A stretch of 61,157 nucleotides of DNA. Origin: Fidelibacterota bacterium. Its GTDB lineage: Bacteria; Fidelibacterota; Marinisomatia; Marinisomatales; UBA1611. The notes beneath the pieces were generated by a model, which did no database searches, was not told the DNA's origin, and saw nothing but the letters and a program-made list of their open reading frames with translations. The stretch is from positions 1 through 61,157 of the forward strand of contig JABHUQ010000115.1 of NCBI GenBank assembly GCA_018658715.1, in the 5' to 3' direction. Made by a program: the position numbers and the translations under genes. Shown one piece after another: positions 25,308 to 56,492 of the stretch (positions within the stretch are counted from its first letter, which is position 1; each line of letters starts with the position of its first letter).

Positions 25308-25319
25308 ATTAATCTCTTG

Positions 25320-25440: not shown

Positions 25441-25452
25441 TATTTTGATGAA

Positions 25453-26061: not shown

Positions 26062-26082
26062 AATTTGTTCCTTTGTCAAGAT

Positions 26083-27480: not shown

Positions 27481-27534
27481 AATTACTCCTTTAAAGTTGC
27501 CGGCATCTAAAAACCGAACCATCCCTTACGCCTG

Positions 27535-27939: not shown

Positions 27940-27944
27940 GATTT

Positions 27945-29375: not shown

Positions 29376-29418
29376 TTCTTTACCTTTGGGTTTGCATTAC
29401 TTCTATGAATGTTTTGAA

Positions 29419-30666: not shown

Positions 30667-30719
30667 TATTAATATTCCTTTATCTTTTTCAATATTATTC
30701 CTACTAATAATAATTCTCT

Positions 30720-31997
30720 TTAATTATTTTGAAATAGTGTTTTTTGCACTTCTGATTCTTCTCGAAATGATGTGTAAAAATATATAGTTGTTAGAATGCT
30801 CAATCCTGCAATCGTATACCAGAAATTAGAAAAATCAAATACACCATTTACGGTATAGTATTCTTGCAAAAACCCAGATAGCCAACCGCCGATAACTGGC
30901 CCTCCTCCTAAAATAATAATTCCAAATACCGTTTGGGCAGAATGACGAATATCTTTATCCGTAATACGGTCCACATACATAAATGCGGTCGCAAAGAAAA
31001 AGGCAAAACAAATGCCGTGTAATGCTTGACTGATAACGATTAGCCAAACGGGCAATGATTCTGTACCAAATACGGCGTATCGGGAAAAATAGGCTATGGT
31101 ACCGATGGTAATCACCTTACGAAACCCTAAATTTTTTAGAAAATATCCCAAATAGACCATTGTAAGAATTTCAGCAAATTGACCAATCGTCATAGCCGGA
31201 CCTATTTGACTATCTTTCAATCCAATGTGAGACAGAAATGGTCCAGCTTGGATAAAGTAAATCTGATGTACAATACTTATCGCTAAGCTAGCAATAACCA
31301 ATGTTGTGAATGATGGTTTATTAAATAATTGAAATGCTTTTTTGAATGCCAGTTTTTCCACAGCATCCGCTTTGGGTGGTGTGTGTGGAAGAAGGAAACA
31401 ATAAGCCGCATAAAAAATGGAAATCCCGCCAGAAAATTTTAATGCATCTGCCAATCGTGCTGTTACATCTGGTACTTCTGATCCCACAAAAAAAGGTGGC
31501 ATCCATTGAAAGGATAATCCTGTTTGTAGCCATATCATGGGAAAGGCCCAACTGGCGACAATCCAACCAATAGTTCCCCAAACACGAATCTTAGGGAAAT
31601 CATTATCTTGATCATCAATATGGAAAAATGTGATTGAATTAGTTAATGCAATAGTTGGCATATAAACAATGCTGTAAGCAATAGAAAGAATTAGCCAAGC
31701 AGAATATGTCGTTTGCAAAGATGTATACCACTTTAACACACCACCAACTAACATAAGTACTGCCAAGAATTTTTCTGTACTAAAATAACGATCCGCCAAT
31801 TGTCCAGCAATGAATGGAGCAAATGCAGCGCCCAGCGACCCTGCCAAGCCCAAGATCATACCAATTTGTGTCCCAGTGAATCCCAATCCACCTTCTGCAA
31901 CACCCGCTGATAAATATCGTGCTGTTAAAGGAAGCCAAGCTCCCCATAATGCATATTGGAGGAACATCATTCCGCTTAATCGTGTGGATTTATTCAT
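30720..31997 (-). CDS. MFS transporter, nucleoside/sugar:H+ symporter family
   Basis: 425 residues with about twelve transmembrane segments. 'MMFLQYALWGAWLPLTARYL' at the start and 'PTIALTNSITFFH', 'FPKIRVWGTIGWI' in the first half are typical of the NupG/XapB-like MFS branch, which also contains many uncharacterised sugar carriers of the FCB group. A strong AAGGAGA ribosome site lies five bases before ATG 31997. First gene of the leftward sugar locus, so it probably imports the sugar or keto-sugar produced in the periplasm. Confidence 0.8.
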   Translation of the reverse strand: MNKSTRLSGMMFLQYALWGAWLPLTARYLSAGVAEGGLGFTGTQIGMILGLAGSLGAAFAPFIAGQLADRYFSTEKFLAVLMLVGGVLKWYTSLQTTYSAWLILSIAYSIVYMPTIALTNSITFFHIDDQDNDFPKIRVWGTIGWIVASWAFPMIWLQTGLSFQWMPPFFVGSEVPDVTARLADALKFSGGISIFYAAYCFLLPHTPPKADAVEKLAFKKAFQLFNKPSFTTLVIASLAISIVHQIYFIQAGPFLSHIGLKDSQIGPAMTIGQFAEILTMVYLGYFLKNLGFRKVITIGTIAYFSRYAVFGTESLPVWLIVISQALHGICFAFFFATAFMYVDRITDKDIRHSAQTVFGIIILGGGPVIGGWLSGFLQEYYTVNGVFDFSNFWYTIAGLSILTTIYFYTSFREESEVQKTLFQNN

Positions 31998-40733: not shown

Positions 40734-41681
40734 ATGAAAATAAGACTCTATTTGACAATCATTCTTCTCTGTTCTTTCACAACTCAAAATGTTCAAGGGC
40801 AAGAAAAAGAGTTTAAACGCGTTGGGAAATCTGGGTTTTCTTTCTTAAAAATAAGCCCATCCGCTAGAGCTGCTGGAATGGGCGATGCATTTACAGCTGT
40901 TGCAAATGATATTTCTGCGATTTTTTATAATCCAGCAGGTTTAACACATATTGATCAATTCGATTTTACATTCGGCGTTACTAATTGGATTGTTGGCTCC
41001 AAGTTATATTCTGGAGCTATTGCTCGGCCATATGGGAAACGATCTGTCCTGGGCTTAAGCATTGTGCAGTTTTCACCCGAAGAATTTGAAGAAACGACTG
41101 TTTTAGAGCCTACGGGTACAGGAAGGCTTATATCTGTGGGAGATGTTTCAATTGGGTTAGCTTATGCCATAAAACTTACAGATCAATTGTCTTTTGGATT
41201 TAAAGGGAAATGGATCGAAGAATGGATTGATTCTGACAAAGCACACGGTATTGCTCTTGATTTTGCAACTTATTATTATTCAGGTTTTAAAGATTTATCC
41301 ATTGCAATGATTATGAAAAACTTTGGGCCAGAAGCAGAATATTTGTCAGATAAATTTAAATTACCTTTATACTTTAATGTAAATACTGCAATGAGCATTA
41401 TCGGTGAACAAGGATCACCTATTCGGTTACTTATTTCAGCTGAAAGTGCTTTTGCAACCGATTATCGGGATAGATATCATGTTGGTTCTGAATTACAACT
41501 TCTAAATATTCTTTCAATCCGAGGTGGGTATAAATTCTTTTATGATACTGAAGATTGGACTGCCGGAATCGGATTAAATGTTAAAACCGGCAGAAAAAAA
41601 ATATTCGTTGATATTGCCTATTCAAATTTTTCAGAATATTTTGAACCTCCCTTCCGATTATCTGTCGGTGGTTCGTTTTAA
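40734..41681 (+). CDS. PorV/PorQ-family outer-membrane protein
   Basis: 315 residues. Signal peptide about 1-22, then the family hallmark 'GFSFLKISPSARAAGMGDAFTAVANDISAIFYNPAGL' region (about 33-70; quoted in part by its key residues SARAAGMG and YNPAG). The rest is a FadL-like beta-barrel with terminal 'FRLSVGGSF'. PorV shuttles type IX cargo from the translocon to the attachment complex; other family members are dedicated to one cargo. It comes directly after a sorting-domain protein (six bases), which supports a cargo-specific role. Confidence 0.8.
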   Translation: MKIRLYLTIILLCSFTTQNVQGQEKEFKRVGKSGFSFLKISPSARAAGMGDAFTAVANDISAIFYNPAGLTHIDQFDFTFGVTNWIVGSKLYSGAIARPYGKRSVLGLSIVQFSPEEFEETTVLEPTGTGRLISVGDVSIGLAYAIKLTDQLSFGFKGKWIEEWIDSDKAHGIALDFATYYYSGFKDLSIAMIMKNFGPEAEYLSDKFKLPLYFNVNTAMSIIGEQGSPIRLLISAESAFATDYRDRYHVGSELQLLNILSIRGGYKFFYDTEDWTAGIGLNVKTGRKKIFVDIAYSNFSEYFEPPFRLSVGGSF

Positions 41682-41780: not shown

Positions 41781-43334
41781 ATGACACTCCATTGGATTGA
41801 TTTAACTGTTTTAATAGGATATTTATCTCTCGTTGCAGGAATGGGCTATTATTTTTCAAAGAAAAATATTTCAACAGAAGAATATTTTGTTGGCGGACGA
41901 TCTTTTTCTGGAGTTATTGTTGGACTAAGCCTTGTTGGAACATCCATTAGTTCTGTCACTTTCCTTTCTTATCCTGCAGATGCCTATAAAACAACCTGGA
42001 TACGATTTATTACAACATGGTCCATGCCATTAGGTGTTCTTATTGCTGCCTATTACTTTCTCCCTTTCTTTCGTCGTGGGCAAATCACATCTGCATATGA
42101 ATATCTTGAAGATCGATTTGGGCCGTCCGTAAGAGTTTACGGCGGAGTTACATTTATCGTGGCCCAACTTGTTCGAATAAGTTTAATTCTATATCTCGTT
42201 TCATTACTAATGCATGAAATAACTGGATTCTCAATTGTAACAAGTATTTTAATTAGTGGCATTTTTGTTGCCTTCTATACCATTATTGGTGGTATTAATG
42301 CTGTGATTTGGACAGATGTGATTCAAACGATCGTCCTAGTATTAGGAGGGTTTTTAACTCTTAGTGTAATTATTAATCATTTGCCCGGTGGTTTGGACCA
42401 AATCTTTTCTGTAGCAATTACTGATGGAAAATTATCCTTATCTGAAATGACTTCATCAGGATTTCGATCAATTGGATGGGGATTTTCCTTAACGGCTAAA
42501 ACAGGGACCATGCTTTTTTTAGTAGGGCTCACTAGTTGGCTAACAGAATATAGTGCAAATCAAAATACTGTCCAGCGTTATGCAGCTGCTAAAAGTACCC
42601 TTGAAGCAAGAAAAGCGATGCTTGTTTGTGTAGTGTCAAGTTTACCAATCTGGGCATTCTATATGTTTATCGGGACATCACTTTATGTGTTTTTCCAAGA
42701 ATTTCCAACCATTGAAGCCACTGAAATGCTTAGTGGCGTTCGTAAAGCAGAACAAGTTTTTCCATATTTTATTCTAAACTTCCTCCCTCCTGGCTTAACT
42801 GGGTTAGTGATTGCGGCAGCACTCGCAGCTGCTATGTCTTCCTTAGATTCTAGTATTAACGCGATTTCTACCGTAGGCATTGTTGACATATATCGCCGTC
42901 ATATCAAACCAGGAGAGAATGATAAACATTATTTGCAAATGGCATGGATAATTGCGGGAGGAGCAGCTCTCTTTATGATGGGTGGGGCTTTTATACTAAA
43001 TGCATCAAAGACAAAAACACTTCAAGATACAGTAACTATATTGTCGTCTATTACAGGTGGCGGTTTATTAGGCCTCTATTTACTTGGATTTTTTACAAAA
43101 AAAGGAAATGCAAAATCAGTTTGGATTGGACTAATTTTAACAACCCTATTTACAATTTGGACTATCCTCGCAAAACGTGGGATGGTTCCCGACTGGATGA
43201 ATGTACCTTTTGATTTATATTATACCGGACTCATTGGTAATATAATTATGTTTTCCGTCGCATTTATGGTTGCTGTTTTTTTAATGGATCAGAAAAAGAA
43301 TTTGAAAAATTTGACCATTTGGGATATGGACTAA
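41781..43334 (+). CDS. sodium/solute symporter (SSS family)
   Basis: 517 residues, about thirteen transmembrane segments. 'STEEYFVGGRSFSGVIVGLSLVGTSISSVTF' at about 31-61 includes the sodium-site region; 'YTIIGGINAVIWTDVIQT' near 167-184 and 'AAALAAAMSSLDSSINAIST' near 343-362 are the classical SSS signatures. It imports a sugar, sialic acid or similar solute with sodium. It is followed after 52 bases by the ceramidase-family gene, and a second symporter gene lies at 54720-56492. Confidence 0.88.
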   Translation: MTLHWIDLTVLIGYLSLVAGMGYYFSKKNISTEEYFVGGRSFSGVIVGLSLVGTSISSVTFLSYPADAYKTTWIRFITTWSMPLGVLIAAYYFLPFFRRGQITSAYEYLEDRFGPSVRVYGGVTFIVAQLVRISLILYLVSLLMHEITGFSIVTSILISGIFVAFYTIIGGINAVIWTDVIQTIVLVLGGFLTLSVIINHLPGGLDQIFSVAITDGKLSLSEMTSSGFRSIGWGFSLTAKTGTMLFLVGLTSWLTEYSANQNTVQRYAAAKSTLEARKAMLVCVVSSLPIWAFYMFIGTSLYVFFQEFPTIEATEMLSGVRKAEQVFPYFILNFLPPGLTGLVIAAALAAAMSSLDSSINAISTVGIVDIYRRHIKPGENDKHYLQMAWIIAGGAALFMMGGAFILNASKTKTLQDTVTILSSITGGGLLGLYLLGFFTKKGNAKSVWIGLILTTLFTIWTILAKRGMVPDWMNVPFDLYYTGLIGNIIMFSVAFMVAVFLMDQKKNLKNLTIWDMD

Positions 43335-43386: not shown

Positions 43387-44730
43387 ATGAATGTAATAAT
43401 AAAATGGATTTTAGCTCTTTTTGGTGTAATAATTTTTCTTGCAAGTATAACCATTCAACCGGTTGATAGAACACATTTCCTTGAATCTGACTATTATCAA
43501 ATCGCCAGTTCAAGATTGGATAGCATAAAAACAAATTTTAATTCAATTACTAATTCACACCTGAATGTTGGCTGGGCAAAAGTAAATATTACGCCAAAAT
43601 CACCTACCCCACTTTCTGGTTATGGAAATCGTAAAGGTGCAATATCCATTGGTGTTCACGATTCTCTTTTTGCGCGATGCTTTGTTTTTAATAATAATAA
43701 CGAGAGTATAGCATTTATCACGCTGGATGCTCTCTTGGTCCCTCCTGCAGTTACACTTCAATTATTAGAAAGACTCCCTTCCATTGGATATGATTTAAAT
43801 CATGTGTATTTAACTGCAACCCATACACATTCTTCAATGGGTGCATGGGGAAACAGTTATATAGGAGAACTTTTTGCTGGGGAGTTTGATCAAAATATTG
43901 TTAATCAACTTTCAACCAACATTATTAATGCCATACAAAAAGCAGAAAAAAATATAAGTCATGCATCCATTGGGTATGCTAAATACGAAGCATCAGAATT
44001 AGTTACAAATCGACTCGTTGGTAATAAAGGGATTATTGATTCATGGTTTCGAGTAGTGAAAATTCAAAAGCAAAATGGTGAGACCGCACTTCTTACGACA
44101 TTTGCTGCTCATGCTACGTGTTTATCAAGTGATGAAATGAAATATGCTAGAGACTATCCAGGACAGTTAGTTGATTCACTTGAATCATTAAGTGGAATTA
44201 ATTTTGCTGCATTTGCTGCGGGTGGTGTGGGAAGTCATAGACCCGAAAGTGGCGGATTTGGGCAACACGATCGTACCCGTTGGTTAGCATCATCTCTTAA
44301 ACAAAAAGTTAATCATGAGTCCATTCCCCTAAATCAAACAAACCCGATTAATATGTCCTTGATGGATGTCCCCCTTCGAAACGCCCATTGGCGGTTTTCA
44401 GAAAGTTGGAGATTTAGGCCTTGGGTATTTAATTGGCTGTCAGAAGAATCATTTCATTTTATAACTGCTCTTAGAATTGGAAATATTGTTTTTACTGGTA
44501 CTCCCTGTGATTTTTCTGGTGAATTAATATCTGAAATAGAAAATGGGGTTGATAAGAATGTAAACCTTCTAGTAACTAGCTTTAATGGGGGATATATTGG
44601 CTATATCACAAAAGATTGTTGGTATGACTTAAAGGAATACGAAACATTTATGATGAATTGGTTCGGTCCAAATAATGGTCAATATTTCGTGCAATTAATT
44701 CAAGAGCTAGTTAACATTATTGTACGATGA
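43387..44730 (+). CDS. neutral ceramidase-family amidase, short form
   Basis: 447 residues from ATG 43387, which has GAGG six bases upstream; the longer reading starts at a TTG. A single N-terminal hydrophobic helix (about 5-20) anchors or exports it. 'VGWAKVNITPKSPTPLSGYGNRKG' opens the neutral/alkaline non-lysosomal ceramidase domain; 'TATHTHSSMG' and 'FAAHATCLSSDE' give the zinc histidines. It is shorter than typical ceramidases (650 or more residues) and has no C-terminal immunoglobulin-like domain. The region of the nucleophile reads 'GGVGSHRPESG'. It likely cleaves an amide, not necessarily ceramide. Confidence 0.75.
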   Translation: MNVIIKWILALFGVIIFLASITIQPVDRTHFLESDYYQIASSRLDSIKTNFNSITNSHLNVGWAKVNITPKSPTPLSGYGNRKGAISIGVHDSLFARCFVFNNNNESIAFITLDALLVPPAVTLQLLERLPSIGYDLNHVYLTATHTHSSMGAWGNSYIGELFAGEFDQNIVNQLSTNIINAIQKAEKNISHASIGYAKYEASELVTNRLVGNKGIIDSWFRVVKIQKQNGETALLTTFAAHATCLSSDEMKYARDYPGQLVDSLESLSGINFAAFAAGGVGSHRPESGGFGQHDRTRWLASSLKQKVNHESIPLNQTNPINMSLMDVPLRNAHWRFSESWRFRPWVFNWLSEESFHFITALRIGNIVFTGTPCDFSGELISEIENGVDKNVNLLVTSFNGGYIGYITKDCWYDLKEYETFMMNWFGPNNGQYFVQLIQELVNIIVR

Positions 44731-46994
44731 AGCCTTTTATTTTTATTCTATCTATTCATATGACTCTAGTTGCGCAACTGGACATGATAGGTGGTTATCG
44801 TCCCAGAATAATCACACGTGGAAAAATGTGGTCTGCTTTTCGAAACAATGGATTAGACGGGGGGGGTGATAGGAACAATTCTTCAAGCCATAGCCAAGAA
44901 AGTCTCTCATATCCAGGAAACATTGCTCGTTCTTTTACTGATTTTGTGGAATATTTTGCAGATGTAGAAGCTTATCTTAATGGAGATCCTCACATTATAG
45001 ACCCGCCCCGAGTTACCATTTCACAAAATTCTAAAGGACAAGGAATTTGGGTTTTAGCCATTAATCAAGATTTGGATACACTCGTGTCTTGCTCAGGCCC
45101 AAGAGGTTTATCCTATGACATTGAATCAGAAACATATGATATTTATAATGCATTAGAATCCACGTTAGGTGATTCATCTTGGCCTAATTCACAGCGTAGC
45201 AATTATTCCCCAGATCATCAAAGTATTATTGGGAATGAACCTATTGAAATACATAATTATCGGTATCACGATTATATTATAAATGATGAATATCCTGAAG
45301 AAATTATTATCAGTCAATGGACCACAAAAACGGGGATTCAAGGTACACGAAAAGCGTATGCTTGGAGCTATCCTGATTATGATGATTTCATTTTACAAGA
45401 AATCATATTTGAGAATAAAGGCAATGATGTTTTAGATCCAGTATATTTTGCATTTAAGACTGGACTAAATGTTAATTCTGCAGCTCATGGTTGGGCAGAT
45501 GGATACCAAATGGGTTGGAGTGATTGGCGCATAAACAGAAAGCAGACTCAAGATGATGTATTCTTTTATACCCAATCAGATACTTTCAATCCTGACCTAC
45601 CAGAATATAAATCAGATTATCAAAATCATATTATGGCCTACCAAAGAGACGGTGATTGGCTTGGAACAAATTGGGATGATACGGCACAACCTTATAAATT
45701 AGAAGTGGCAAATGCTCATGAAAATGAATTTCAAGGTCAAGTGGAAAATCAACTTCTTGCATATCAATATATAGGATTAGGCATAATTGACTATCTCCCC
45801 GAAGGGGATTTTGTTCATCCAGAATCTGTTGATCAACCTATTATAACAAAATGGTGGCAATCGGGAAATATAGATGAATTAGATTATAAAGATCCTAACC
45901 CTTTACAACATAATGATAGAGAAATGTTTGAAGCAATGATAAACCAAGATGAAAGTGATATTACTCATACTCCCATCGTTGATGATTTAGGAGAACATGC
46001 CTTGGTATTTGGTCCCTATCATCTCGAGCCAGGACAAAAGGCAAAAATCGTCATTGCATTTGTGGGTGGTTCTGGAGCCGATTGGCTCAATGAAGATGAA
46101 ATAACATGGTCATTAACATCTGATGCTATTTCTGAACATACCCTTGGGGAAAGATCACTATTCAGAAATTTTGAACGGGCTAAATTTGCTTACGAAAATT
46201 CGTTTGATATACCTGATGCACCGCCTGATGTAGATATTTGGTTTGGCAATTCTAGACTTGGAGAAGTGGTTGTTAATTGGAAAGATGATGCAGAAGATGC
46301 TTTGGACCCTGACTATGAAGGTGATGAAGCAAAAGATGTTCGGGGGTATCGCATTTATAAATCGTGGCCTCCATCTCATTTTTGGCATAATGGTCCATGG
46401 GAATTCATCGTAGATATTCCCGTAGGTGATTCAACCTTTTATGATACATCAAAAGGCATTTATTCATTTACAGATACGACTTCATTTTCTGGGTATAATT
46501 ATTATTATAGTGTTCATACGTATGATTCGGGACATGAGCATTGGTACGATAAAGAAGGAAATGATTTAGGTCCAATTCCATCATTAGAAAGTGGAATGTC
46601 ATCTCCAGAACAAAAAAATGTGATAGCAATTACTCCATTCCAAGCATCAAATTCGGTATTTGATCAAATGACAGAACCAATTCGAGTTGTACCAAATCCT
46701 TATCGATTAGATTTTTCTGATCCACTTCACATGTACCCAGATGCAGGTGATCCTTATAAATTGAGATTTATCAATTTACCTCGTAAATGTATCATTCGTG
46801 TCTTCACAGCTTCGGGAGATTTAGTGCTCGAACGAAAACATCTAAAAGAATCTTCTGCCGAATCTGCATGGAGACAAGAAAGTATTACATTTTCAGGGAA
46901 TGTGGTAAGTGGTATCTATTTTTGGATGGTAGAATCATTGGCTGATGAAAGTTTAGGCCAAGTCCAAAAAGGGACACTTGCAATAGTGAAATAA
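44727..46994 (+). CDS. large secreted sorting-domain protein, paralogue 2
   Basis: 755 residues. Signal peptide about 1-16. Shares with the protein at 38430-40727 the opening 'GGYRPRIITRGKMW', 'EAYLNGDP', 'NDEYPEEIIISQW', 'YAWSYPDYDDFI', 'GGSGADWLNEDE' and the whole C-terminal sorting-like domain ('VVPNPYRLDF', 'ASGDLVLERKH', 'SGIYFWMVES', ending 'KGTLAIVK'). The ATG overlaps the ceramidase-family stop (ATGA), so the two are expressed together. Unlike paralogue 1 it has no adjacent TonB receptor or PorV-like gene. Function unknown; probably surface-exposed. Confidence 0.75.
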   Translation: MKPFIFILSIHMTLVAQLDMIGGYRPRIITRGKMWSAFRNNGLDGGGDRNNSSSHSQESLSYPGNIARSFTDFVEYFADVEAYLNGDPHIIDPPRVTISQNSKGQGIWVLAINQDLDTLVSCSGPRGLSYDIESETYDIYNALESTLGDSSWPNSQRSNYSPDHQSIIGNEPIEIHNYRYHDYIINDEYPEEIIISQWTTKTGIQGTRKAYAWSYPDYDDFILQEIIFENKGNDVLDPVYFAFKTGLNVNSAAHGWADGYQMGWSDWRINRKQTQDDVFFYTQSDTFNPDLPEYKSDYQNHIMAYQRDGDWLGTNWDDTAQPYKLEVANAHENEFQGQVENQLLAYQYIGLGIIDYLPEGDFVHPESVDQPIITKWWQSGNIDELDYKDPNPLQHNDREMFEAMINQDESDITHTPIVDDLGEHALVFGPYHLEPGQKAKIVIAFVGGSGADWLNEDEITWSLTSDAISEHTLGERSLFRNFERAKFAYENSFDIPDAPPDVDIWFGNSRLGEVVVNWKDDAEDALDPDYEGDEAKDVRGYRIYKSWPPSHFWHNGPWEFIVDIPVGDSTFYDTSKGIYSFTDTTSFSGYNYYYSVHTYDSGHEHWYDKEGNDLGPIPSLESGMSSPEQKNVIAITPFQASNSVFDQMTEPIRVVPNPYRLDFSDPLHMYPDAGDPYKLRFINLPRKCIIRVFTASGDLVLERKHLKESSAESAWRQESITFSGNVVSGIYFWMVESLADESLGQVQKGTLAIVK

Positions 46995-47031
46995 TAGTTT
47001 TCCCTTAAAATTAATCTAAAGATAAATTTTC

Positions 47032-47670
47032 TTATTCCTGAGTTAAAAACCAACCCATCGTCATATACCAAAATACATTTAGATTGAAAACTATTTTCTG
47101 TATAATGGTAATAGGCAAGCCTCGAACATTCATAATCCCTTGATACATATGATAGGCAAGTAATACCATAAAAATTGCAGATATGACTGTTAACCAATCA
47201 GGTATAATTTTTTTATTGAACACGAGAGTAATAATTAAGGCTATAAGTAATCCTAAAGCCCACATATAAACACCAAATAAATGAATATCTTTTAATATAT
47301 TACTTGGTGTTGCTCCAACGATGATAAGACCAATACTGGAAAAAATGCCCAAACTAGACGCCAACCAACCCATCCATCTTCTCGTTGTGAAGGATGAATA
47401 ATTCAGGAAAAATATACATAAAGAAATTCCAAAAATAATGAGAGAACTATTCATTATAATCATAGATGATAAATTAGGTTCACCATTTTTGGCGACGGTT
47501 TCCCCCAAATCACTTAAAAAGTTTTGCCAATAATGATATCCAGACGTTGTTCTATCCCAAGGTGTGCCACCCGGATAAAAGAAAATCGAAATGTGAGACA
47601 TAATAAAATAAACCACACTCCCATATATGGCTGCCATACCACTAAATCTTCTTGTAGGAATTAAATTCAT
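47032..47670 (-). CDS. DUF998-like six-helix membrane protein
   Basis: 212 residues, six transmembrane segments. 'YHYWQNFLSDLGET' after the first helix matches the 'N.iSdLg' motif of DUF998 membrane proteins, and 'HLFGVYMWALGLLIALI' fits helix 5. Role unknown. The ATG overlaps the stop of the ceramidase-family gene upstream (ATGA), so it is the last member of the leftward unit 51868-47032. Confidence 0.6.
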   Translation of the reverse strand: MNLIPTRRFSGMAAIYGSVVYFIMSHISIFFYPGGTPWDRTTSGYHYWQNFLSDLGETVAKNGEPNLSSMIIMNSSLIIFGISLCIFFLNYSSFTTRRWMGWLASSLGIFSSIGLIIVGATPSNILKDIHLFGVYMWALGLLIALIITLVFNKKIIPDWLTVISAIFMVLLAYHMYQGIMNVRGLPITIIQKIVFNLNVFWYMTMGWFLTQE

Positions 47671-49220
47671 TTTAAGTCTTTAATTAAACTCACTAAATGT
47701 TTGTAAATCAACGGACCGGTCTCTGGTCCAATTGAATTTTCTTCCCCATATGGAGAATCATCCAAATGATATAAATAGGGTGGTTTTTCATCCCATTCAC
47801 TTTTTGGAATAATATAACCAATTTCATCATTGGCTAACCCAAAAATAAATTTGAATTCACCATCCATGATTGATCTTAAACTTGGAACTTCAATTGGGGA
47901 AATTTTATAATCTTGGCCTTGAGGTGACACCACTCCCCCATTAACAATTTCAGGATATATTTCACCAGGGATAGTAAGGAAACTTGCTGGTCCAATATTA
48001 AAAGCAGCAACTTCTGTTCTCACCTGCATCCAACTAGTAGTCCCATGTTTGATGACACCTAAAGCAAAACCCAGTTTGAAATTATTATTATCCAAGGGTA
48101 AAGAAATTGTTTTAGCCATAATTGAAATAGAACATTCCGTAATATCAATTGCTTGTTTTCCATTGAGAGCATTTAATAATAAATAGCCAATATTTTGCCC
48201 CTGAGCTTCTGTTTTTTCAAATGTTGCCCCTGTTAGCATTTCACCTGTAAACATGTCAGGAATCGCAAAAGACGGGCGTGTAGTCATTAATCCTCCGACA
48301 GAACTACTCATATAGACAGCCGTACCTCCAATACCTTCAGCCAATGTTTTTCCATTTCGATGAATCCCATTTTCAACCGATTCTCTGATGTAATGTGGGA
48401 AATCGGAACTGATTTGCAAATTCCCACTCCATAAAGTTTCAGGATGATTCCCCCATGAAATGAGTGAGCCCAACGTTGTATCTGCATCTATATCAATTGC
48501 TTGGATAATTCGAAGCCCGGCATCTAATTCTTCTGGTTTACGTGTATCCATTACAAAAGTGGCTCCATTCACTAAATCTTGAGCAAACCTAAGTTTCGCT
48601 GGACGCAATTGATTAACTGCAGTTTCGATGGCAAATTTGGTTTTGGCTTTTACATCAGCCATAAATTCTGGATTGACGCCAGAAGATAAAAAACTTTCGC
48701 CCCATATTCCCACCAAATCCGGACCTTCATGATTATGTGTGCTTGCTATGATACAATAATCTAATTGAAGAGATTTTGATAATGATTTTCTAATATCAAC
48801 AACTTCGTCGTGTAGAAATCCCACCGCATCTAACCCAACAATGGCTAATCGAGTGTCTCCAATTTCCAAAACCATCACTCTAGCCCAGATATCATCATGG
48901 ATGCCTTGCGCTGGTCTTTTGTTATGGAATCCTGCAATCCAAACTGGGTCAAAGGTTCCATTCCCATTTAAATCATTGTAGGTATCACCTTTATTGGGTT
49001 CATATCGTGCATTATTATCAATATCATTCCACGTATCAAATCCTGAAGGCGTAATAGGCACTTTTGCAAATCCAGCTTTAATAGGATGAGATTGATCATC
49101 TTTTATGGATAAATTAATTGAATAATCTGGGTGTCTATCTGACAAATTATTTATGATAAATCCATATCCAAATAGAAGAAAGATTCCAAAAAATAATATA
49201 ATTCTTTTAAGAATGTTCAT
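47667..49220 (-). CDS. neutral ceramidase-family amidase with EF-hand-like insert
   Basis: 517 residues from ATG 49220, chosen because it makes an ATGA overlap with the YdjC-like gene and gives an N-terminal signal anchor (about 5-24). The ceramidase domain starts at 'KAGFAKVPITPSG'. An acidic insert 'NDLNGNGTFDP' and the preceding 'DIDNNARYEPNKGD' look like calcium loops. Zinc ligands are expected in 'ASTHNHEGPD' and 'SWGNHPETLWSG'. 'YMSSSVGGLMT' may hold the nucleophile serine. It is shorter than true ceramidases. It lies with a YdjC-type deacetylase and an esterase, which suggests removal of N- or O-acyl groups from a glycan or glycolipid. Confidence 0.78.
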   Translation of the reverse strand: MNILKRIILFFGIFLLFGYGFIINNLSDRHPDYSINLSIKDDQSHPIKAGFAKVPITPSGFDTWNDIDNNARYEPNKGDTYNDLNGNGTFDPVWIAGFHNKRPAQGIHDDIWARVMVLEIGDTRLAIVGLDAVGFLHDEVVDIRKSLSKSLQLDYCIIASTHNHEGPDLVGIWGESFLSSGVNPEFMADVKAKTKFAIETAVNQLRPAKLRFAQDLVNGATFVMDTRKPEELDAGLRIIQAIDIDADTTLGSLISWGNHPETLWSGNLQISSDFPHYIRESVENGIHRNGKTLAEGIGGTAVYMSSSVGGLMTTRPSFAIPDMFTGEMLTGATFEKTEAQGQNIGYLLLNALNGKQAIDITECSISIMAKTISLPLDNNNFKLGFALGVIKHGTTSWMQVRTEVAAFNIGPASFLTIPGEIYPEIVNGGVVSPQGQDYKISPIEVPSLRSIMDGEFKFIFGLANDEIGYIIPKSEWDEKPPYLYHLDDSPYGEENSIGPETGPLIYKHLVSLIKDLK

Positions 49221-50203
49221 GATTTTACTTTTTCCTCGAATCGATTCATTATTTCTTTCCAATTTGTAAAAACAATACCTTCATCCTCCATAAATTGAAT
49301 TATATCAGGATCGGAAAACATCTTAGCTTCCCATACACGTTGTTGCCAGGAGTTGGTAATTTTTTTCAATCCTTCTGTTTCAACTGAAGGGTGAAATATT
49401 ATTTCTGATAACCCAGGTTTAAGAGATTGAATTAATTGGTAAAAATTATTCTTTTTATCATTATAACTTTTACCAGTAGGCACAGAATAAAAGTCATCTA
49501 ACTTTGGTAACGTATAATCTTGACCATAAGAAACCATTTCATCAGAAATTGGATAACCTTGTTTCCTAAATTTCTTAACAATTTCTGGCGTAAAGTTGAT
49601 CACATTTGCCGGAATATTATACTCCATGGCTACTTTAAAAAATGCTTTTGCATATTTTGCAGATCCATAAAGTGTCCCCATATGTGTATCTATATGGTCC
49701 GGTGTCATTCCACTTTCAATTGCTCGATCAATTTGAGCTCTTATTTCGGTTTCAACTTCTTCCGCTGAAGCATGCATAACGACTCCCGGTACTTCGTGAT
49801 AGAAATAACCATCATCATCAATTAATCCAGGTACATCTCTTACATTTGATATAGGTCCCCAACGGTATGTTTTCCATTCTGCCGTTAATGTTAAATGTAG
49901 GCCAACATCAAATGATGCATGTTTGATAGACCATTCTGAAAAATCATTAAACCATGGACACGGAACCATCACTGCCGCAGATTGGATCTGATTATTCAAT
50001 AAATAAGACTCAGCTGATTGATTCGCTTCTTGGCACATTCCTATATCATCTGCATGTAAAATAACAACTCGGCTTCCTTTTGGGAATCCTAATTTTTCTG
50101 CCCAGTTTGCTCCGTCGATATTCATCGTATTCTTTGTTCTCTCTTTATTAGAGCAAGAAATAACTCCTATGAATAAAATAAGTAAAATCCGTGATAATTT
50201 CAT
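49217..50203 (-). CDS. YdjC/ChbG-family carbohydrate deacetylase-like lipoprotein
   Basis: 328 residues from ATG 50203, favoured because AAAGGA lies five bases upstream; ATG 50215, four codons earlier, gives an ATGA overlap with the esterase gene and is the alternative. A lipoprotein signal ends in 'VISC' (Cys17). Family motifs: 'ILHADDIGM' (metal Asp, about 48-56), 'GLHLTL' near 101-106 and 'DHIDTHMGT' near 169-177, then 'IIFHPSVE'. ChbG/YdjC enzymes remove acetyl groups from chitooligosaccharides. An exported lipoprotein form is less usual and fits action on glycans in the periplasm or at the surface. Confidence 0.78.
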   Translation of the reverse strand: MKLSRILLILFIGVISCSNKERTKNTMNIDGANWAEKLGFPKGSRVVILHADDIGMCQEANQSAESYLLNNQIQSAAVMVPCPWFNDFSEWSIKHASFDVGLHLTLTAEWKTYRWGPISNVRDVPGLIDDDGYFYHEVPGVVMHASAEEVETEIRAQIDRAIESGMTPDHIDTHMGTLYGSAKYAKAFFKVAMEYNIPANVINFTPEIVKKFRKQGYPISDEMVSYGQDYTLPKLDDFYSVPTGKSYNDKKNNFYQLIQSLKPGLSEIIFHPSVETEGLKKITNSWQQRVWEAKMFSDPDIIQFMEDEGIVFTNWKEIMNRFEEKVKS

Positions 50204-50211
50204 AAGTCCTT

Positions 50212-51171
50212 TCATTCATTGTTAAATGGTACAACTTTTTCAAAAAATTTTGCCATATAAAATTGCATATATTCATTGACAGGGACGGCTAAATCCATGG
50301 TGTGCGGCCACCCTTTTAATCTATGATATTCATGAGATACGCCTAATCGTTTTAATCTTTGATCCAAAGTGTCTGCTTGGCTTATAGGAACTATTTTATC
50401 AATGGTCCCATGAAACGTAATCGTTGGTGGATCATCACCAGAAATATAGCTTAATGGAGAAGCATCTTGAAATAGAGTAGGATTCTGTGCATAGTCAATA
50501 CCAATGAATTCAGTAAGCGCAGAATTACTTAATGCAAAGTCAGTTGTTAAATCAACGGGACCATATATGTTTACGATTCCTTGTACCTTACCAATAGAAC
50601 CACAAGTTTCATAGGCATTAGTATATCCAATCATCATAGCCAAATGAGCCCCAGCCGAGCCACCAATTACAACTACTTTATTAGTATCAATACCATAATC
50701 ACCACCATTTTGTTTTATCCACTGAACTCCGCAGGTCACGTCTTCAACTGCAGCTGGAAATTTAGCTTCACTGGAAAGACGATAAGATAGTGTAGCTGTG
50801 ACGTATCCTTTTTTTGCAAATTCAATTAAATAAAATAAATAATCTTCTTTTTCCCCATATTTCCAACTCCCTCCATGGATAAATATAAGAGTAGGCACAA
50901 ACCCAGAATGATCCTTTTTTCTAAAGATATCTAACTTGAGTGGTCGACTCGAAGTTTCCTTAAATGGGATGTCCGAAATAACTTCAATAGACGGTGGAAT
51001 CTCTGGCGCTCTATTAATCAAGTCTATAAAGCCTAATCCGGCAGACCACTCTAATAATGTATAATTAAAATATCCGACTGGTGGGATAGGATCTTTTAGC
51101 TCATCATTATTGACACACGATATCAATGCAAAAAGTAAAAATGGTATGAATATTTTTATAATTTTAATCAA
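50212..51171 (-). CDS. alpha/beta-hydrolase (esterase, BD-FAE/lipase-3 type) lipoprotein
   Basis: 319 residues, start TTG 51171 (no in-frame ATG at the N-terminus). Lipoprotein signal with lipobox 'LISC' at about 16-19. The oxyanion motif HGGSW is at 99-103; nucleophile Ser172 in GGSAGAH; Asp258 in 'GTIDKIVP'; His290 in 'GWPHTMD': a complete triad. Such enzymes deacylate carbohydrates or short-chain esters. It overlaps the PAP2 gene stop by 8 bases and the YdjC-like gene start when that is read from 50215. Confidence 0.8.
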   Translation of the reverse strand: MIKIIKIFIPFLLFALISCVNNDELKDPIPPVGYFNYTLLEWSAGLGFIDLINRAPEIPPSIEVISDIPFKETSSRPLKLDIFRKKDHSGFVPTLIFIHGGSWKYGEKEDYLFYLIEFAKKGYVTATLSYRLSSEAKFPAAVEDVTCGVQWIKQNGGDYGIDTNKVVVIGGSAGAHLAMMIGYTNAYETCGSIGKVQGIVNIYGPVDLTTDFALSNSALTEFIGIDYAQNPTLFQDASPLSYISGDDPPTITFHGTIDKIVPISQADTLDQRLKRLGVSHEYHRLKGWPHTMDLAVPVNEYMQFYMAKFFEKVVPFNNE

Positions 51172-51868
51172 GAAGAAAAGATATCCTTAAATCCATCTGT
51201 GGTGTGATACTCACATGAACTTTACCAAACATATTTTTATGATATTTATAGGAAAATGCTCTACCAACAGTTGTGCCTAATGCCGCTCCAAAAATCACAT
51301 CACTTAAATAATGTTTATCTTCATGTATACGGCTTAAACCTGTGATACATGCCAACATATAGGCAGGTACTCCGACCTTACTTCCATAAGTTTCTTGTGC
51401 AATCGTTGCAGTTAAAAAACTATTCGATGTATGGGCAGATGGGAATGATCGATTATTCGATTTGTCCGGTCTTTCTTTCCCAATTGCAAATTTCAATCCA
51501 TATGTAATTAAACCATTGGCTACAAATGCGTTCATCGCATATACTAATCGTTCATTTTTATCTTTTTTATTAATGAACGACCCCCATAATAATAGTTGTC
51601 CTCCTATCCCCCAATAATCTGCTACATTTGCCATGCCATTGGATATGAGTCCTTTTGATTGGATATAGTTTTGTGCCTTTACGTCAATCTGAGTTAATGC
51701 TAAGGTCGTAATAGCTGCACCTCCTAATAACTGTTGATTGGATTGATCCATGATAAACCTTTTTCCGGACTCAGTCCAATAAGTTGCACAATGAAGATTT
51801 AATTCTTTTGCTAATACAGAGCTCATGAACAAAGATGATATAATAATATATTGTTTAATATTTTTCAT
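51164..51868 (-). CDS. PAP2-family phosphatase
   Basis: 234 residues from ATG 51868, which begins a signal peptide; the longer reading to 51913 adds 15 polar residues before it. The three-part acid phosphatase signature is complete: 'KFAIGKERPD' (126-135), 'SFPSAHTS' (141-148) and 'SRIHEDKHYLSD' (179-190). Family members dephosphorylate lipid phosphates or undecaprenyl pyrophosphate. The protein has few strong helices, so it may be periplasmic with an outer-membrane barrel-like tail ('VHVSITPQMDLRISFLLD'). Divergent from the oxidoreductase gene, whose ATG is 62 bases away. Confidence 0.82.
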   Translation of the reverse strand: MKNIKQYIIISSLFMSSVLAKELNLHCATYWTESGKRFIMDQSNQQLLGGAAITTLALTQIDVKAQNYIQSKGLISNGMANVADYWGIGGQLLLWGSFINKKDKNERLVYAMNAFVANGLITYGLKFAIGKERPDKSNNRSFPSAHTSNSFLTATIAQETYGSKVGVPAYMLACITGLSRIHEDKHYLSDVIFGAALGTTVGRAFSYKYHKNMFGKVHVSITPQMDLRISFLLD

Positions 51869-51930
51869 AAACGATGTGGATTGTTCATCTAAAAGTTCAC
51901 AATTTCTTATCATCTATAAAAGAGATAAAA

Positions 51931-53172
51931 ATGAAACAAAAAAGTGCAATTATCATTGGGGCAGGGAATCGTGGAACCACCTATGCGAACTATAGTTTAT
52001 CATTTCCAAATGAAATGAAAATTGTAGGAGTTGCGGACCCTAATCCAGAAAAACGAGAAAATTTTATAGAACTTTTCAATCTCACAGATTTACAATGTTA
52101 TGATTCATGGGAATCCATTTTTGAACAACCAAAATTAGCGGATATTGCGATTATTACAACTCAAGATCAGATGCATATAGAGCCCGCTTTGGCTGCCATA
52201 GAAAAAGGATATCATATTTTATTAGAAAAACCATTGGCAACAACTGAAAATGAGTGTATCACTTTTAATCAGAAAGCTCAAGGTTACAATAAAATTATTG
52301 GGTTATGTCATGTACTTAGGTTTACATCCCATTATTTAAAAATGAAGGAAGTGATTGATTCAGGTGTGATTGGTCAAGTTGTTAATATCGAACATTTGGA
52401 ACCTGTTAATTATTGGCATATGGCTCACTCTTATGTTCGGGGAAATTGGCGACGGTTAGATGAATCATCACCAATGATTATTGCAAAATCTATTCATGAT
52501 ATTGATTTGATAAGTTGGTTTGCAAATTCTGCCTATAAAAGTATTTATTCCATTGGATCGCTCCACCATTTCAAAATAGAAAATGCACCAGAAGGAAGCA
52601 CCAACCGATGTATTTCTGATTGTGTTGTGGAAAGTGAATGTCCTTATTCTGCATTAAAATTATATATGAATATGGATTTAAGCGGATGGCCTGTTTCTGT
52701 TATATCCCGTGATTTATCAAAAGGAGGACGAGAAAAAGCATTAGAAGAAGGTCCGTATGGCCGCTGTGTATATCGATCTGACAATGATGTTGTCGATCAT
52801 CAAGTAGTGAGTATTGAATTCGAGAATGATATAAAAGCATCATTTACTATGTCAGCTTTTACTGATGGTGAAAGACGCACTAGAATCATGGGAACGATGG
52901 GTGAAATTATTGGAGATTTCAATACCATTACATTGAGCAACTTTAGAAATCAGTCTAAGGAAATTGTATGGGAAAAATCTGACGAAGATGAAATGGGACA
53001 TGGAGGTGGTGATTTTGGGCTTATGAAACAATTTCTATTAGCAGTACGAGCCAATGACCCCACCTTATTCAGCTCTTCATTAGAAGCCGCTATGGAAAGT
53101 CACTTAATGTCGTTTGATGCAGAGAGAAGCCGATTAGATAAAAGAGTAATACTCTCTAATCAAGAATTATGA
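51931..53172 (+). CDS. Gfo/Idh/MocA-family oxidoreductase with cysteine cluster
   Basis: 413 residues from ATG 51931 (AGAGA upstream; longer readings overlap the divergent promoter). Rossmann 'IIIGAGNRGTTYA' at 7-19; canonical EKP at 99-101; 'KSIHDIDLISWF' near 186-197. A Cys227-x3-Cys231-x5-Cys237 group in 'CISDCVVESECPYSA' is typical of a sub-group of this family found in glycan-utilisation loci and could bind zinc. No signal peptide, so cytoplasmic. It is convergent with the GH84 gene (overlap of 13 bases). Probably converts a sugar released from the imported glycan. Confidence 0.85.
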   Translation: MKQKSAIIIGAGNRGTTYANYSLSFPNEMKIVGVADPNPEKRENFIELFNLTDLQCYDSWESIFEQPKLADIAIITTQDQMHIEPALAAIEKGYHILLEKPLATTENECITFNQKAQGYNKIIGLCHVLRFTSHYLKMKEVIDSGVIGQVVNIEHLEPVNYWHMAHSYVRGNWRRLDESSPMIIAKSIHDIDLISWFANSAYKSIYSIGSLHHFKIENAPEGSTNRCISDCVVESECPYSALKLYMNMDLSGWPVSVISRDLSKGGREKALEEGPYGRCVYRSDNDVVDHQVVSIEFENDIKASFTMSAFTDGERRTRIMGTMGEIIGDFNTITLSNFRNQSKEIVWEKSDEDEMGHGGGDFGLMKQFLLAVRANDPTLFSSSLEAAMESHLMSFDAERSRLDKRVILSNQEL

Positions 53173-54452
53173 ACAATATTTTGAATATCATATAAAATCC
53201 CTTGCCTTCGTGGGACCAATCCAGGTGCTTGAAATTCTCCTGTTCCAGACTGCTTCCATTCTATCCACTTTGAAACATATTCTATTTCTTCTCTTAACTC
53301 AATTAGCGGGAAATATAAATCATACATTAAATCACGATTGGTTGTTGCCATCAATTTTGTGCACAAGGAATTCAATCTATATTCGAATGATTTAAACGTA
53401 ACTAAATGGGATGCACATTCTTCGGGTGGATGATTTAATATAAAATTAATACTTTCAATTATTTGATTTCCCATTTCCCCCATTGTCCCCGGCACATAAA
53501 AACAATCACCTAACAATTGAATTTCTTCATTGTATATATCTGCATTCCAAAAATATTGGATCCATTCATTAGATGAATCTTTGAAAGCTTGTCTCGGGTC
53601 CCACTCTGTTTTAGCCACTTGATACTGGCTCAATGTTCGTAATGGATTATAATTTGCCCAAAATTGACAATTCGGATTACTCAGAATACCATCTATTTCA
53701 TTCTTTAGTTCTAATGTTCTACCTACATATGGGCCAAAATATATTTGTCGAATATCGTAATCATTTGCATGAAGATTATCCCATAAGATAGGTTTTCTTT
53801 TTATTACATTACGAAGTTCCTGAATCGACTCAACAGAAATATCATTTGAAACAACTTCTGGACCCGTCCAGAAAAAGCCAATGTTAGGATTTAACTTTGT
53901 GCCTAACTCTAATAAATATTCATTCCCTAAAACATTATAGTTTGCCATTTCTCCACAATATACGGTTGGACAGAATAGCAGTTTTGAATTTGGGAAATGG
54001 TCAAATAATCGGTTAGTAATATTGGCCTGAGCTTCAGCAAAGGATGAATAAGCCTTTTTGTCCTTTTCCGATAACTTTAAAGGAATATCGTCAAATAGTA
54101 TTGCAAATTGTTTGCATCCAATATTTTGAATTTGTTCAATTTTTTCTATTAATAGATTCCATTCATCTTCACTGGAATAAGTAATATCTAGACCAGGTGC
54201 TATACTATAAATAAATCCCAATTCCTTTTTATGGCATGATTGAATTAATTCTTTTAATTCCTTTAGACTATTATCTGGATATAATTCGCGCCAATTACTT
54301 CGATGGTATAAATCATCTTTGGGTGCATACATATAGGTATTCATGCCTTCCCAGTCTTCCAACCACTGGAATAATTGAAGGCGCTGATCTTGCCGCCAAG
54401 GGCGACCGTAAAACCCTTCTAACGCACCGGAAATAAATGGATGTGCTGCCAT
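53160..54452 (-). CDS. GH84 beta-N-acetylglucosaminidase
   Basis: 430 residues. 'GALEGFYGRPW' at 9-19, 'MNTYMYAPKDD' at 37-47 and the catalytic aspartate pair in 'FDDI' at 120-123 are the GH84 (O-GlcNAcase/NagJ) signatures; the family uses substrate-assisted catalysis through the N-acetyl group. It lacks a signal peptide and the carbohydrate-binding and cohesin-like modules of clostridial NagJ, so it seems to be a cytoplasmic catalytic domain plus a helical tail, like the catalytic half of animal O-GlcNAcase. The ATG overlaps the stop of a small membrane protein gene (TAATG). It likely removes beta-GlcNAc from imported oligosaccharides. Confidence 0.88.
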   Translation of the reverse strand: MAAHPFISGALEGFYGRPWRQDQRLQLFQWLEDWEGMNTYMYAPKDDLYHRSNWRELYPDNSLKELKELIQSCHKKELGFIYSIAPGLDITYSSEDEWNLLIEKIEQIQNIGCKQFAILFDDIPLKLSEKDKKAYSSFAEAQANITNRLFDHFPNSKLLFCPTVYCGEMANYNVLGNEYLLELGTKLNPNIGFFWTGPEVVSNDISVESIQELRNVIKRKPILWDNLHANDYDIRQIYFGPYVGRTLELKNEIDGILSNPNCQFWANYNPLRTLSQYQVAKTEWDPRQAFKDSSNEWIQYFWNADIYNEEIQLLGDCFYVPGTMGEMGNQIIESINFILNHPPEECASHLVTFKSFEYRLNSLCTKLMATTNRDLMYDLYFPLIELREEIEYVSKWIEWKQSGTGEFQAPGLVPRRQGILYDIQNIVHNS

Positions 54453-54727
54453 TAAAAAACCAAATAAATCACAACAATTGTACCTAATGAAAAAAGAGCA
54501 AATGGTCGTAAATGGATTACTTTACCGTTGTCCAAAGCTAAAGTCACTTCATTTTCTGGTAACTTAATGACCCAATAAATCAGTATTAGGAAGTAAACAA
54601 TAAAGACACCTTTTGCAACACTCATAGGAATGGCTAACATCCATCCCCGCATTATATCACCCACACCTCGAAAAAGATTTGCTATCGTATCTGCTAAAGC
54701 GGTTGAAGTTAAAAGGACATTATTCAT
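54452..54727 (-). CDS. small two-helix membrane protein linked to a symporter
   Basis: 91 residues with helices at about 27-53 and 72-91. The sequence 'GVFIVYFLILIYWVIKLPENEV' gives the first, with a short loop after it. It overlaps the symporter gene by 8 bases and the GH84 gene by one, so it is a co-translated partner. Small proteins of this kind often sit after SSS symporters in these bacteria; whether it is a subunit is not shown. Confidence 0.65.
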   Translation of the reverse strand: MNNVLLTSTALADTIANLFRGVGDIMRGWMLAIPMSVAKGVFIVYFLILIYWVIKLPENEVTLALDNGKVIHLRPFALFSLGTIVVIYLVF

Positions 54728-56492
54728 AACGATATACCAAACCTTTCAATTTTGATTCCGGCTCTGGTGGCGTATTTAAACTCACTACAATTAAAATAAC
54801 TACTGATAATACAAAGGACCACCATGCAACATACAGAAATGGCTCTGAAACTTGGAATAAGGGAACGGATGCATTATTGTTGACCCACATGAGCATTCCA
54901 GCAAAAGCAACGCCTGATAGTAAAGAAACTAATGCCGCTTTTCCTGTCGCTCGTTTCCATAGCATGCCTATAGCAATGATAGCCAAACTTGGTCCTTGGA
55001 ATAAAGATAATATGGTTTGGCTCAAATCATATATACTTTCAAATCGTGTAGCGAATTGAGCAAAGAAAATAGCAATCGCAAGCATGGCTCCAGTGATCCA
55101 TCTTCCAATAATGAGCAAGTCTGCTGGTGTTGCATTTGGTTTAACAAACTTTTGATATACATCTTTTGTCCAAATTGTGGCTCCAGAGTTTAATGCAGAA
55201 TCCACTGAAGACATGAGTCCTGCTAAGAATGCAGCAAAAAATATTCCTAATAATCCTGTGGGTAGAATGTCTTTGACCAATGTAGCCATAGCCTTATCTG
55301 CATCCGTAATATTGGGATTATGAGCTAATGCGATAATACCAGGAATAACCATGGCAAAAGGAATCAATATTTTTAAAATGGAACCAAATACATAGGAAGC
55401 CTTCGCATCTGCTTCAGACCGTGCGCCTAATGTTCTTTGAACCATATTTTGATTCCCAAACCAATAGGCATTTGCTAAGACTAACCCCAACCCTAAAAAG
55501 ATGCCTGACCAGGGATGAGGCGTTGCTGTATCAACGGATAGAATGAGTTCAAAATGATCTTGTGCTCTTGGCCCTAATGATTGAATTATAGATACAAATT
55601 CGCTTATTCCACCCAATCGATATATTCCAAAAAAGAGAACAAATAATGATCCACCTAACATAACAACGCATTGAAGTACATCTGTATATACAACTGCTTT
55701 TAATCCACCAAACAACGTATAAGTCCCAATCAAGATACTCATAATTATGATTGAATACATCAGTGTCCATGTTGGAGGCCTTGCCTTATTCATCATGGCT
55801 TCCCCCCAATCAGATGTAATCTCATTTTCATCAAATGAAATAATGGCACTTTCGCTTGATAAAGCACCACTCCAATCTTGATCGATTAATACTAAATTCG
55901 GATCTTTATCATCAATAACCTGTTGAATCTGGCTATAATCAGACAGGAAAATAAAATCATGTGATTTCCCCGCCCCCGTTGCATCAACGACTTTTTCTCT
56001 CACAGGTTGAGATTCAGTTACAACAACTACTTTTGGATTCAAGTCAAGTAGAAGATTAAACATCAATGCTGTTGCATAAAGAGTTACACCTAAACCAAAT
56101 GCTGTTACAATTCCCCAAATCACAGCAGAAATAGTACGTACACTTTGATTATACCTAGCACCTAGCCATTCTGGGATTGTACTTACTTTTGATTTCCAAA
56201 ACATGGGTATAAACAAAAAGGCACCTACAATCATAACAGGCACACTGCCCAGCCAATCATAATTGCCTAAAACGATTCCATATAAATAAGCCGCTCCAGC
56301 AATTCCGACCATATCCACAGCTCCAATGTCTGTTACAACCAATGACATACCAATGGCCCACCATGGCAAAGATCGCCCTGCAAGAAAATAATCGTCCCCA
56401 GACTTCATTTTTCGACCGATATACATTCCAAATAGAACAGTACCAATCAAATATATAATAATAATAAAATAATCAATTCCACCAAGTGCCAT
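54720..56492 (-). CDS. sodium/solute symporter (SSS family) with a soluble insert
   Basis: 590 residues, longer than the usual 500-550. Core signatures: 'SGDDYFLAGRSLPWWAIGMSLVVTDIGA' near 31-58, 'YTLFGGLKAVVYTDVLQ' near 258-274, 'AAFLAGLMSSVDSALNSGATIW' near 419-440. Residues about 151-240 form a polar, soluble insertion between two helices, containing 'GAGKSHDFIFLSD' and 'NLVLIDQDW', that I have not seen as a standard SSS part. AAAGGA lies five bases before the ATG. Upstream of GH84 and downstream of a TonB receptor gene, so it likely imports the GlcNAc-type oligosaccharide or monosaccharide. Confidence 0.85.
   Translation of the reverse strand: MALGGIDYFIIIIYLIGTVLFGMYIGRKMKSGDDYFLAGRSLPWWAIGMSLVVTDIGAVDMVGIAGAAYLYGIVLGNYDWLGSVPVMIVGAFLFIPMFWKSKVSTIPEWLGARYNQSVRTISAVIWGIVTAFGLGVTLYATALMFNLLLDLNPKVVVVTESQPVREKVVDATGAGKSHDFIFLSDYSQIQQVIDDKDPNLVLIDQDWSGALSSESAIISFDENEITSDWGEAMMNKARPPTWTLMYSIIIMSILIGTYTLFGGLKAVVYTDVLQCVVMLGGSLFVLFFGIYRLGGISEFVSIIQSLGPRAQDHFELILSVDTATPHPWSGIFLGLGLVLANAYWFGNQNMVQRTLGARSEADAKASYVFGSILKILIPFAMVIPGIIALAHNPNITDADKAMATLVKDILPTGLLGIFFAAFLAGLMSSVDSALNSGATIWTKDVYQKFVKPNATPADLLIIGRWITGAMLAIAIFFAQFATRFESIYDLSQTILSLFQGPSLAIIAIGMLWKRATGKAALVSLLSGVAFAGMLMWVNNNASVPLFQVSEPFLYVAWWSFVLSVVILIVVSLNTPPEPESKLKGLVYRYE

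Follow-up and report, generated by a model that had tools for sequence, protein, structure and literature searches.

A co-inherited, probably catabolic gene cluster with two ceramidase-fold amidases and TonB receptors in Candidatus Neomarinimicrobiota

The stretch of DNA analyzed here (the window) is the entire contig JABHUQ010000115.1, 61,157 nucleotides long, of a 2.46 Mb Fidelibacterota genome whose nearest named relatives are Candidatus Neomarinimicrobiota assemblies. Between about 35.4 and 59.1 kb it holds a real and conserved unit, probably a catabolic gene cluster with TonB uptake, in which overlapping genes for two ceramidase-fold amidases (CER1 and CER2) and their partner enzymes stand together with two TonB receptors and two Na+ symporters. 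A literature search over titles and the first parts of abstracts found no paper describing this unit. A sequence-only reading had placed two amidases, a YdjC-type deacetylase, an esterase (EST), a PAP2 phosphatase and a GH84 enzyme among symporters and a TonB receptor, and had proposed that they strip acyl groups and phosphate from an N-acylated amino-sugar glycolipid and then cleave it. All six enzymes are present as open frames, and the symporters (SSS1 and SSS2) and the receptor (TonB2) could be located. The interpretation as a whole has partial support. The locus is best explained by the import of an acylated amino-sugar conjugate together with removal of its acyl groups and phosphate, and the GH84 step is not supported in the form proposed.

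Results

Evidence for a single unit comes from the joint inheritance of its genes. In the order (Ca. Neomarinimicrobiota, 130 genomes including the window's own) genes were counted as present at E ≤1e-100 for CER2, ≤1e-40 for YdjC and ≤1e-60 for CER1. CER2 was found in 15 genomes spread over four families and eight genera, and YdjC in exactly those 15 and nowhere else. CER1 was present in 13 of them and in none of the 115 others; the two CER2 genomes that lack it have a completeness of 75% and 70%. Hypergeometric probabilities for the association of CER2 with YdjC and with CER1, uncorrected for relatedness, are 6e-20 and 4e-16, respectively. The genome G002, which belongs to the same genus as the window genome and is 92% complete, yielded no hit at the limits used for any of CER2, CER1, YdjC, GH84 and the acetyltransferase described below. 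The block is gained or lost as one. Within the window, ATGA overlaps join YdjC with CER2, CER2 with a membrane protein gene (TM212), EST with YdjC, and CER1 with the gene of a large protein, P765b. Overlaps of eight bases link PAP2 with EST and SSS2 with a small membrane protein gene (sTM), and a single base is shared by sTM and GH84. A promoter scan was uninformative, with 65 promoter-like sites compared to 83.2 in shuffled sequences and 17 terminator-like sites compared to 10.8 (standard deviation 4.0).

Two further members of the neighborhood are a GDPD and a protein related to the C-terminal domain of O-GlcNAcase. GDPD directly adjoins CER1 in six relatives (G039, G051, G092, G094, G095 and G096). 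In the window's own genome it lies on a contig of 3,056 bases (C70), together with a truncated BNR gene and the gene of an acetyltransferase, in the same order as is found past TonB2 in the relative G001, which suggests that C70 is part of the same locus. The acetyltransferase and GDPD genes of C70 (L032) adjoin, at 791-2428. The GDPD protein matches ordinary glycerophosphodiesterases best.

CER1 is encoded on the forward strand from 43375 (TTG) or 43387 (ATG) to 44730 and matches PF04734 with 84.5 bits (cut-off 32.1). CER2, on the reverse strand at 47667..49220 (the open frame from a TTG reaches 49262), scores 19.9 bits with the same family, below the cut-off, and was assigned by its fold. 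Searched against PDB sequences on its own, CER2 gave no meaningful match, although a profile search does reach ceramidases. The AlphaFold models have a predicted local distance difference test score (pLDDT) of 87.5 for CER1 and 90.1 for CER2. On the Pseudomonas ceramidase 2zws, CER1 superposes over 388 residues with Z 36.3 and a root-mean-square deviation (rmsd) of 2.7, and CER2 over 380 residues with Z 32.4 and an rmsd of 2.6; the next unrelated folds reach Z 4.0 and 3.8 at most. Both proteins can therefore be modeled as complete neutral-ceramidase catalytic domains. The superposition covers residues 2-488 (CER1) and 2-487 (CER2) of the 630 in the Pseudomonas enzyme, and because it stops there the C-terminal domain is missing in both, as the sequence-only reading had noted of these short amidases.

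Conservation of the active site was followed in alignments of 41 CER1 proteins (all 40 listed and the window's) and 69 CER2 proteins (68 of the 78 listed and the window's). We take the zinc ligands of neutral ceramidases to be His, His, Glu and Tyr. The corresponding positions, mapped by alignment except for the Tyr of CER2, which was mapped by motif, are His150, His246, Asp379 and Tyr410 in CER1, kept in 41/41 (the third as Asp or Glu), and His176, His273, Glu434 and Tyr483 in CER2, kept in 69/69. Inactive zinc sites, which would have spoken against the sequence-only reading, were therefore not what we found. A different picture is given by the Ser of the GDVSPN-type hexapeptide of ceramidases. 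Its position is occupied by Arg289 in the window's CER1, with Ser in 32/41 proteins of the family, and by Met326 in the window's CER2, with Met in 69/69 (position mapped by motif). Since this Ser is replaced by Arg or Met and the C-terminal domain is missing, ceramide is not established as the substrate. The curated neutral ceramidase equivalog NF041649, with a cut-off of 1200 bits, gives 34.7 bits for CER1 and no match for CER2. Compared with neutral ceramidases (PF04734; Pseudomonas 2zws, human 4wgk), the two amidases thus share the whole catalytic-domain fold and the zinc-ligand positions, but they fall far under the curated cut-off, lack the C-terminal domain and the Ser, occur as two linked paralogues and begin with a helix (residues 2-26 in the CER1 model and 2-40 in that of CER2, the CER2 residues being numbered from the TTG) that looks like a membrane anchor. 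A plasmid search returned 10 records with distant ceramidase-like genes and 88 with distant GH84 genes, Enterococcus matches included, all under 60% identity.

The partner enzymes of CER2 are encoded on the same strand. The YdjC-family protein (49217..50215) matches PF04794 with 181 bits (cut-off 29.7) and the solved structure 8jqe with 155 bits. Against curated deacetylase equivalogs it remains below the cut-offs, with 121.4 bits for NF052308 (400) and 59.6 for chitin disaccharide deacetylase (227). It shares with YdjC/ChbG deacetylases (8jqe, 2e67) the PF04794 domain and, by alignment, their conserved Asp and His motifs but differs from them in its lipoprotein-type N terminus and in being tied to CER2 in the order; in some Bacteroidota it is fused to BNR. 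EST (50212..51171) is an alpha/beta esterase of the BD-FAE type (PF20434, 182.7 bits), also with a lipoprotein-type N terminus. PAP2 (51164..51913) scores 54 bits with PF01569 (cut-off 27.2); its best PDB match, LpxE, is weak (25.1 bits, E 1.4e-4) and restricted to residues 154-227.

Recurrence of these genes was examined outside the phylum as well. A scan with the CER2 alignment found 449 relatives, of which the best 80 loci were used. Of these loci, 69 lie outside Neomarinimicrobiota and come from Bacteroidota, KSB1, Acidobacteriota and Calditrichota. Neighbors were labeled by BLAST clusters, at least one representative being checked for GH92, PhoPQ-related, GDPD, BNR, SusC-type receptor, SusD, PKD and PF04185, and some loci are truncated by contig ends, which makes all absences upper bounds. 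At least one of CER1, EST and YdjC accompanies CER2 in 46 of the 69 loci: CER1 in 31, EST in 35 and YdjC in 23. Without the 13 Arenibacter loci these counts become 18/56, 24/56 and 14/56. CER1 lies directly upstream of CER2 on the same strand in 23/65 and EST directly downstream in 21/67. The KSB1, Acidobacteriota and Calditrichota loci hold none of the partners, so outside the phylum the partners within the core (CER1, CER2, EST and YdjC) were seen only in Bacteroidota. Other neighbors are BNR (27 loci), CehA/PHP-like proteins (16, a label whose representatives scored under curated cut-offs), GH92 (14), GDPD (10) and PF04185 (7), and SusC- and SusD-type genes stand in 16 and 13 loci. At least one of GDPD, CehA/PHP-like, PF04185 or PAP2 is present in 24/69, and by BLAST labels GH84 and the acetyltransferase are present in 0/69. 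In Bacteroidota a BNR-YdjC fusion was found directly upstream of CER2 (L116:1187-3331 and L086:7596-9743, both Pfam-checked). Its cluster has five members, four of them long, of which these two were checked; L113 is BNR only. The BNR proteins cannot be taken as demonstrated sialidases, as their Pfam family is BNR_2 and the only NCBIfam scan of a BNR protein, that of the L116 fusion, gave matches to deacetylase models alone.

GH84 (53160..54452, reverse strand; PF07555, 280.5 bits) scores 335 bits with a chain named Protein O-GlcNAcase, 281 with 2xsa, which we take to be OgOGA, and 154.5 with BT_4395, and by these scores it is closer to O-GlcNAcase than to other bacterial GH84 enzymes. Asp121-Asp122 align with the Asp pair of the solved chains, presumably the catalytic pair of the family. 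Against the curated equivalog NF041654 the protein reaches 191 bits, below the cut-off of 1000. No signal peptide was seen in it by eye, and it is probably cytosolic; for that reason its step would follow import, and its substrate would not be an intact glycolipid. Its distribution is also at odds with the cleavage step of the sequence-only reading and excludes it as a fixed member of the pathway: GH84 is found in nine of the 130 genomes and in only six of the 15 with CER2. Where it is missing (G051, G092 and G094), SSS2-sTM leads straight into PAP2-EST-YdjC-CER2, so GH84 and the adjoining Gfo/Idh/MocA oxidoreductase Gfo5 (51931..53172, forward strand; PF01408, 69.6 bits; start codon set from the listing of gene overlaps) are most readily explained by an insertion in a single group. 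In G039 (L022/L023) and G103 (L051) GH84 is split into two or more frames, and in G039 Gfo5 and SSS1 are split as well, through either decay or assembly error. In G124, which has no CER2, another GH84 stands in a row (L050, 3030-10469) with a GH3 carrying a beta-lactamase-type domain, an amidase resembling AmiA and a protein whose matches to NagB-like models lie below cut-off. Judged by its gene content, this row fits general amino-sugar salvage and possibly salvage of murein amino sugars.

The acetyltransferase, examined in G018, matches 3zj0 with 155 bits, 4bmh with 124 and, with 81 bits, Protein O-GlcNAcase in its C-terminal part. We take 3zj0 and 4bmh to be OgpAT and SsAT. Of the 130 genomes, 23 have the gene: all but one of the 15 CER2 genomes (14) and nine of the 115 others, in several of the latter beside unrelated metabolic genes. 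A tight link to the amidases was therefore rejected.

The remaining genes extend the unit beyond positions 43387-54452, the limits given by the sequence-only reading, which do enclose the enzymes named there but are too narrow and left TonB1, Gfo5, TM212 and sTM without a name. Upstream, on the forward strand, lie the TonB-dependent receptor TonB1 (35437..38421; Plug domain 32.9 bits, cut-off 23.9) and P765a (38430..40727, 765 residues), both retained in relatives, followed by a PorV-like outer-membrane protein (40734..41681; PF19572, 28.7 bits, cut-off 27) and the sodium/solute symporter SSS1 (41781..43334; TIGR00813, 244 bits, cut-off 184). P765b (44727..46994, forward strand, 755 residues) follows CER1. 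P765a and P765b are paralogues of about 760 residues which match no Pfam family (at E 0.01 for P765a) and stay with the locus in relatives. TM212 (47032..47670, reverse strand) has a weak Frag1-like match of 20.1 bits, below the cut-off of 30.3. The reverse strand also carries sTM (54452..54727, 91 residues, no Pfam family), SSS2 (54720..56492; TIGR00813, 285 bits, cut-off 184) and TonB2 (56546..59125; barrel 99.6 bits, Plug 53.4 bits). In relatives, too, sTM stands beside SSS2, and it may serve as a small subunit of the symporter. Elsewhere in the window, at 22621-31997, a 3-keto-glycoside pathway seems to be encoded, with four Gfo/Idh oxidoreductases, two domains of the 3-keto-disaccharide hydrolase type (DUF1080), a barrel like that of xylose isomerase and a major facilitator superfamily permease.

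Discussion

The locus could be attributed, with about an even chance of being right, to the catabolism of an acylated, phosphate-bearing amino-sugar conjugate, probably leaning to a phospho- or glycolipid fragment. The conjugate would pass the outer membrane through the TonB receptors. In the periplasm the membrane-anchored zinc amidases CER1 and CER2, the lipoprotein esterase and the lipoprotein YdjC would take off N- and O-acyl groups, and PAP2 and the GDPD of C70 would remove a phosphate or phosphodiester head. SSS2 with sTM would then import a small sugar, and in this lineage GH84 and Gfo5 may complete the breakdown in the cytosol. Gene identity, overlap, co-inheritance, the recurrence of core partners in Bacteroidota, the amidase fold and its metal positions are observed; the compartments, judged by eye from N termini, the order of steps and the class of substrate we infer from them. 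A phospho-glycolipid is favored because phosphodiester and phosphate enzymes recur (in 24 of the 69 outside loci) alongside amidases and esterases. Several points weigh against this attribution. It draws on gene content, fold and co-occurrence, and the counts are not independent, as they come from related genomes within the order and from related Bacteroidota loci (13 of Arenibacter). PAP2 was found in none of the 69 outside loci, and GH84 has the restricted distribution given above. CER1, EST and YdjC are all absent from 23 of these loci, including both from KSB1, both from Acidobacteriota and the one from Calditrichota, so CER2 can act alone. Finally, the SusC/SusD, GH92 and BNR neighbors in Bacteroidota favor a glycan over a lipid.

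These neighbors, together with the BNR-YdjC fusion, the BD-FAE type of the esterase and the replaced hexapeptide Ser in both window amidases, make it possible, if somewhat doubtful, that the target is a non-lipid glycan with O-acyl and N-acyl groups (e.g. a sialic-acid-like or other amino-sugar polymer) on which CER1 and CER2 act as short-chain amidases with no fatty acid involved. However, the amidases share their fold with ceramidases only, and phosphoesterases recur, GDPD and PAP2 among them. The general plan of a TonB receptor with surface and periplasmic hydrolases and an inner-membrane symporter is indeed that of the SusC/SusD polysaccharide utilization loci of Bacteroidota, but the core here consists of amidases and esterases and not chiefly of glycosidases. 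The SusD family had no match among the part of the window's proteins that was scanned with Pfam; it is present in L087. True sphingolipids (inositol-phospho-ceramides or glycosphingolipids) would make good use of the complete ceramidase catalytic fold, with the GDPD beside CER1 freeing ceramide phosphate, the PAP2 in the CER2 operon dephosphorylating it and the amidases hydrolyzing the ceramide. We nevertheless consider them unlikely, given the scores against NF041649, the Arg or Met in place of Ser, the missing C-terminal domain and a GDPD whose best matches are ordinary glycerophosphodiesterases.

The weak match of PAP2 to LpxE and the company of GH84 in G124 could also point to recycling or remodeling of the envelope, i.e. 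of lipid A or of amino sugars from peptidoglycan, be it the cell's own or that of its neighbors. A block that 115 of the 130 genomes lack, among them that of a sister species in the same genus, is not housekeeping, and TonB receptors and symporters indicate uptake, which makes this very improbable. That the genes belong to unrelated pathways and are adjacent by chance might be argued from their several strands and transcription units and from GH84 and PAP2 not being universal, but it is a negligible prospect, because the genes co-occur in genomes in a nearly all-or-none manner and overlap from stop to start.

The genome also combines an O-GlcNAcase-near GH84 with an acetyltransferase of the GNAT type near the C-terminal domain of O-GlcNAcase. 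GH84 catalysis needs the acetyl group of the substrate. It is very speculative, and in our view has little chance of being correct, that bacterial relatives of animal O-GlcNAcase and of its acetyltransferase-like C-terminal domain serve glycoconjugate scavenging, in which the amidases and YdjC would bare the hexosamine amine in the periplasm, the symporter would import the product, the acetyltransferase would re-acetylate it in the cytosol and GH84 would cleave it. The same two kinds of protein are found in Oceanicola granulosus, where according to excerpts of PMC3814719 OgOGA and OgpAT are encoded by adjoining genes, their function is reported as unknown and OgpAT binds acetyl coenzyme A (AcCoA). 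As in that pair, both proteins occur here in one genome and, judging from the gene order of G001, in one neighborhood, but they are not immediate neighbors and are set in a cluster of transporters, amidases and phosphoesterases. For SsAT, an excerpt of PMC3919268 suggests a small molecule as the acceptor.

From these results we can conclude that two uncharacterized ceramidase-fold families are tied to a defined, co-inherited unit, and since its core recurs in Bacteroidota, the cultured genera Arenibacter, Maribacter and Mariniphaga included, the substrate can be tested. In addition, one genome holds both an O-GlcNAcase-like enzyme and a protein related to the C-terminal domain of O-GlcNAcase, with a metabolic role that can be guessed. 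If the scavenging proposal were true, it would provide a role for the OgOGA/OgpAT pair and an origin for the two-part animal enzyme.

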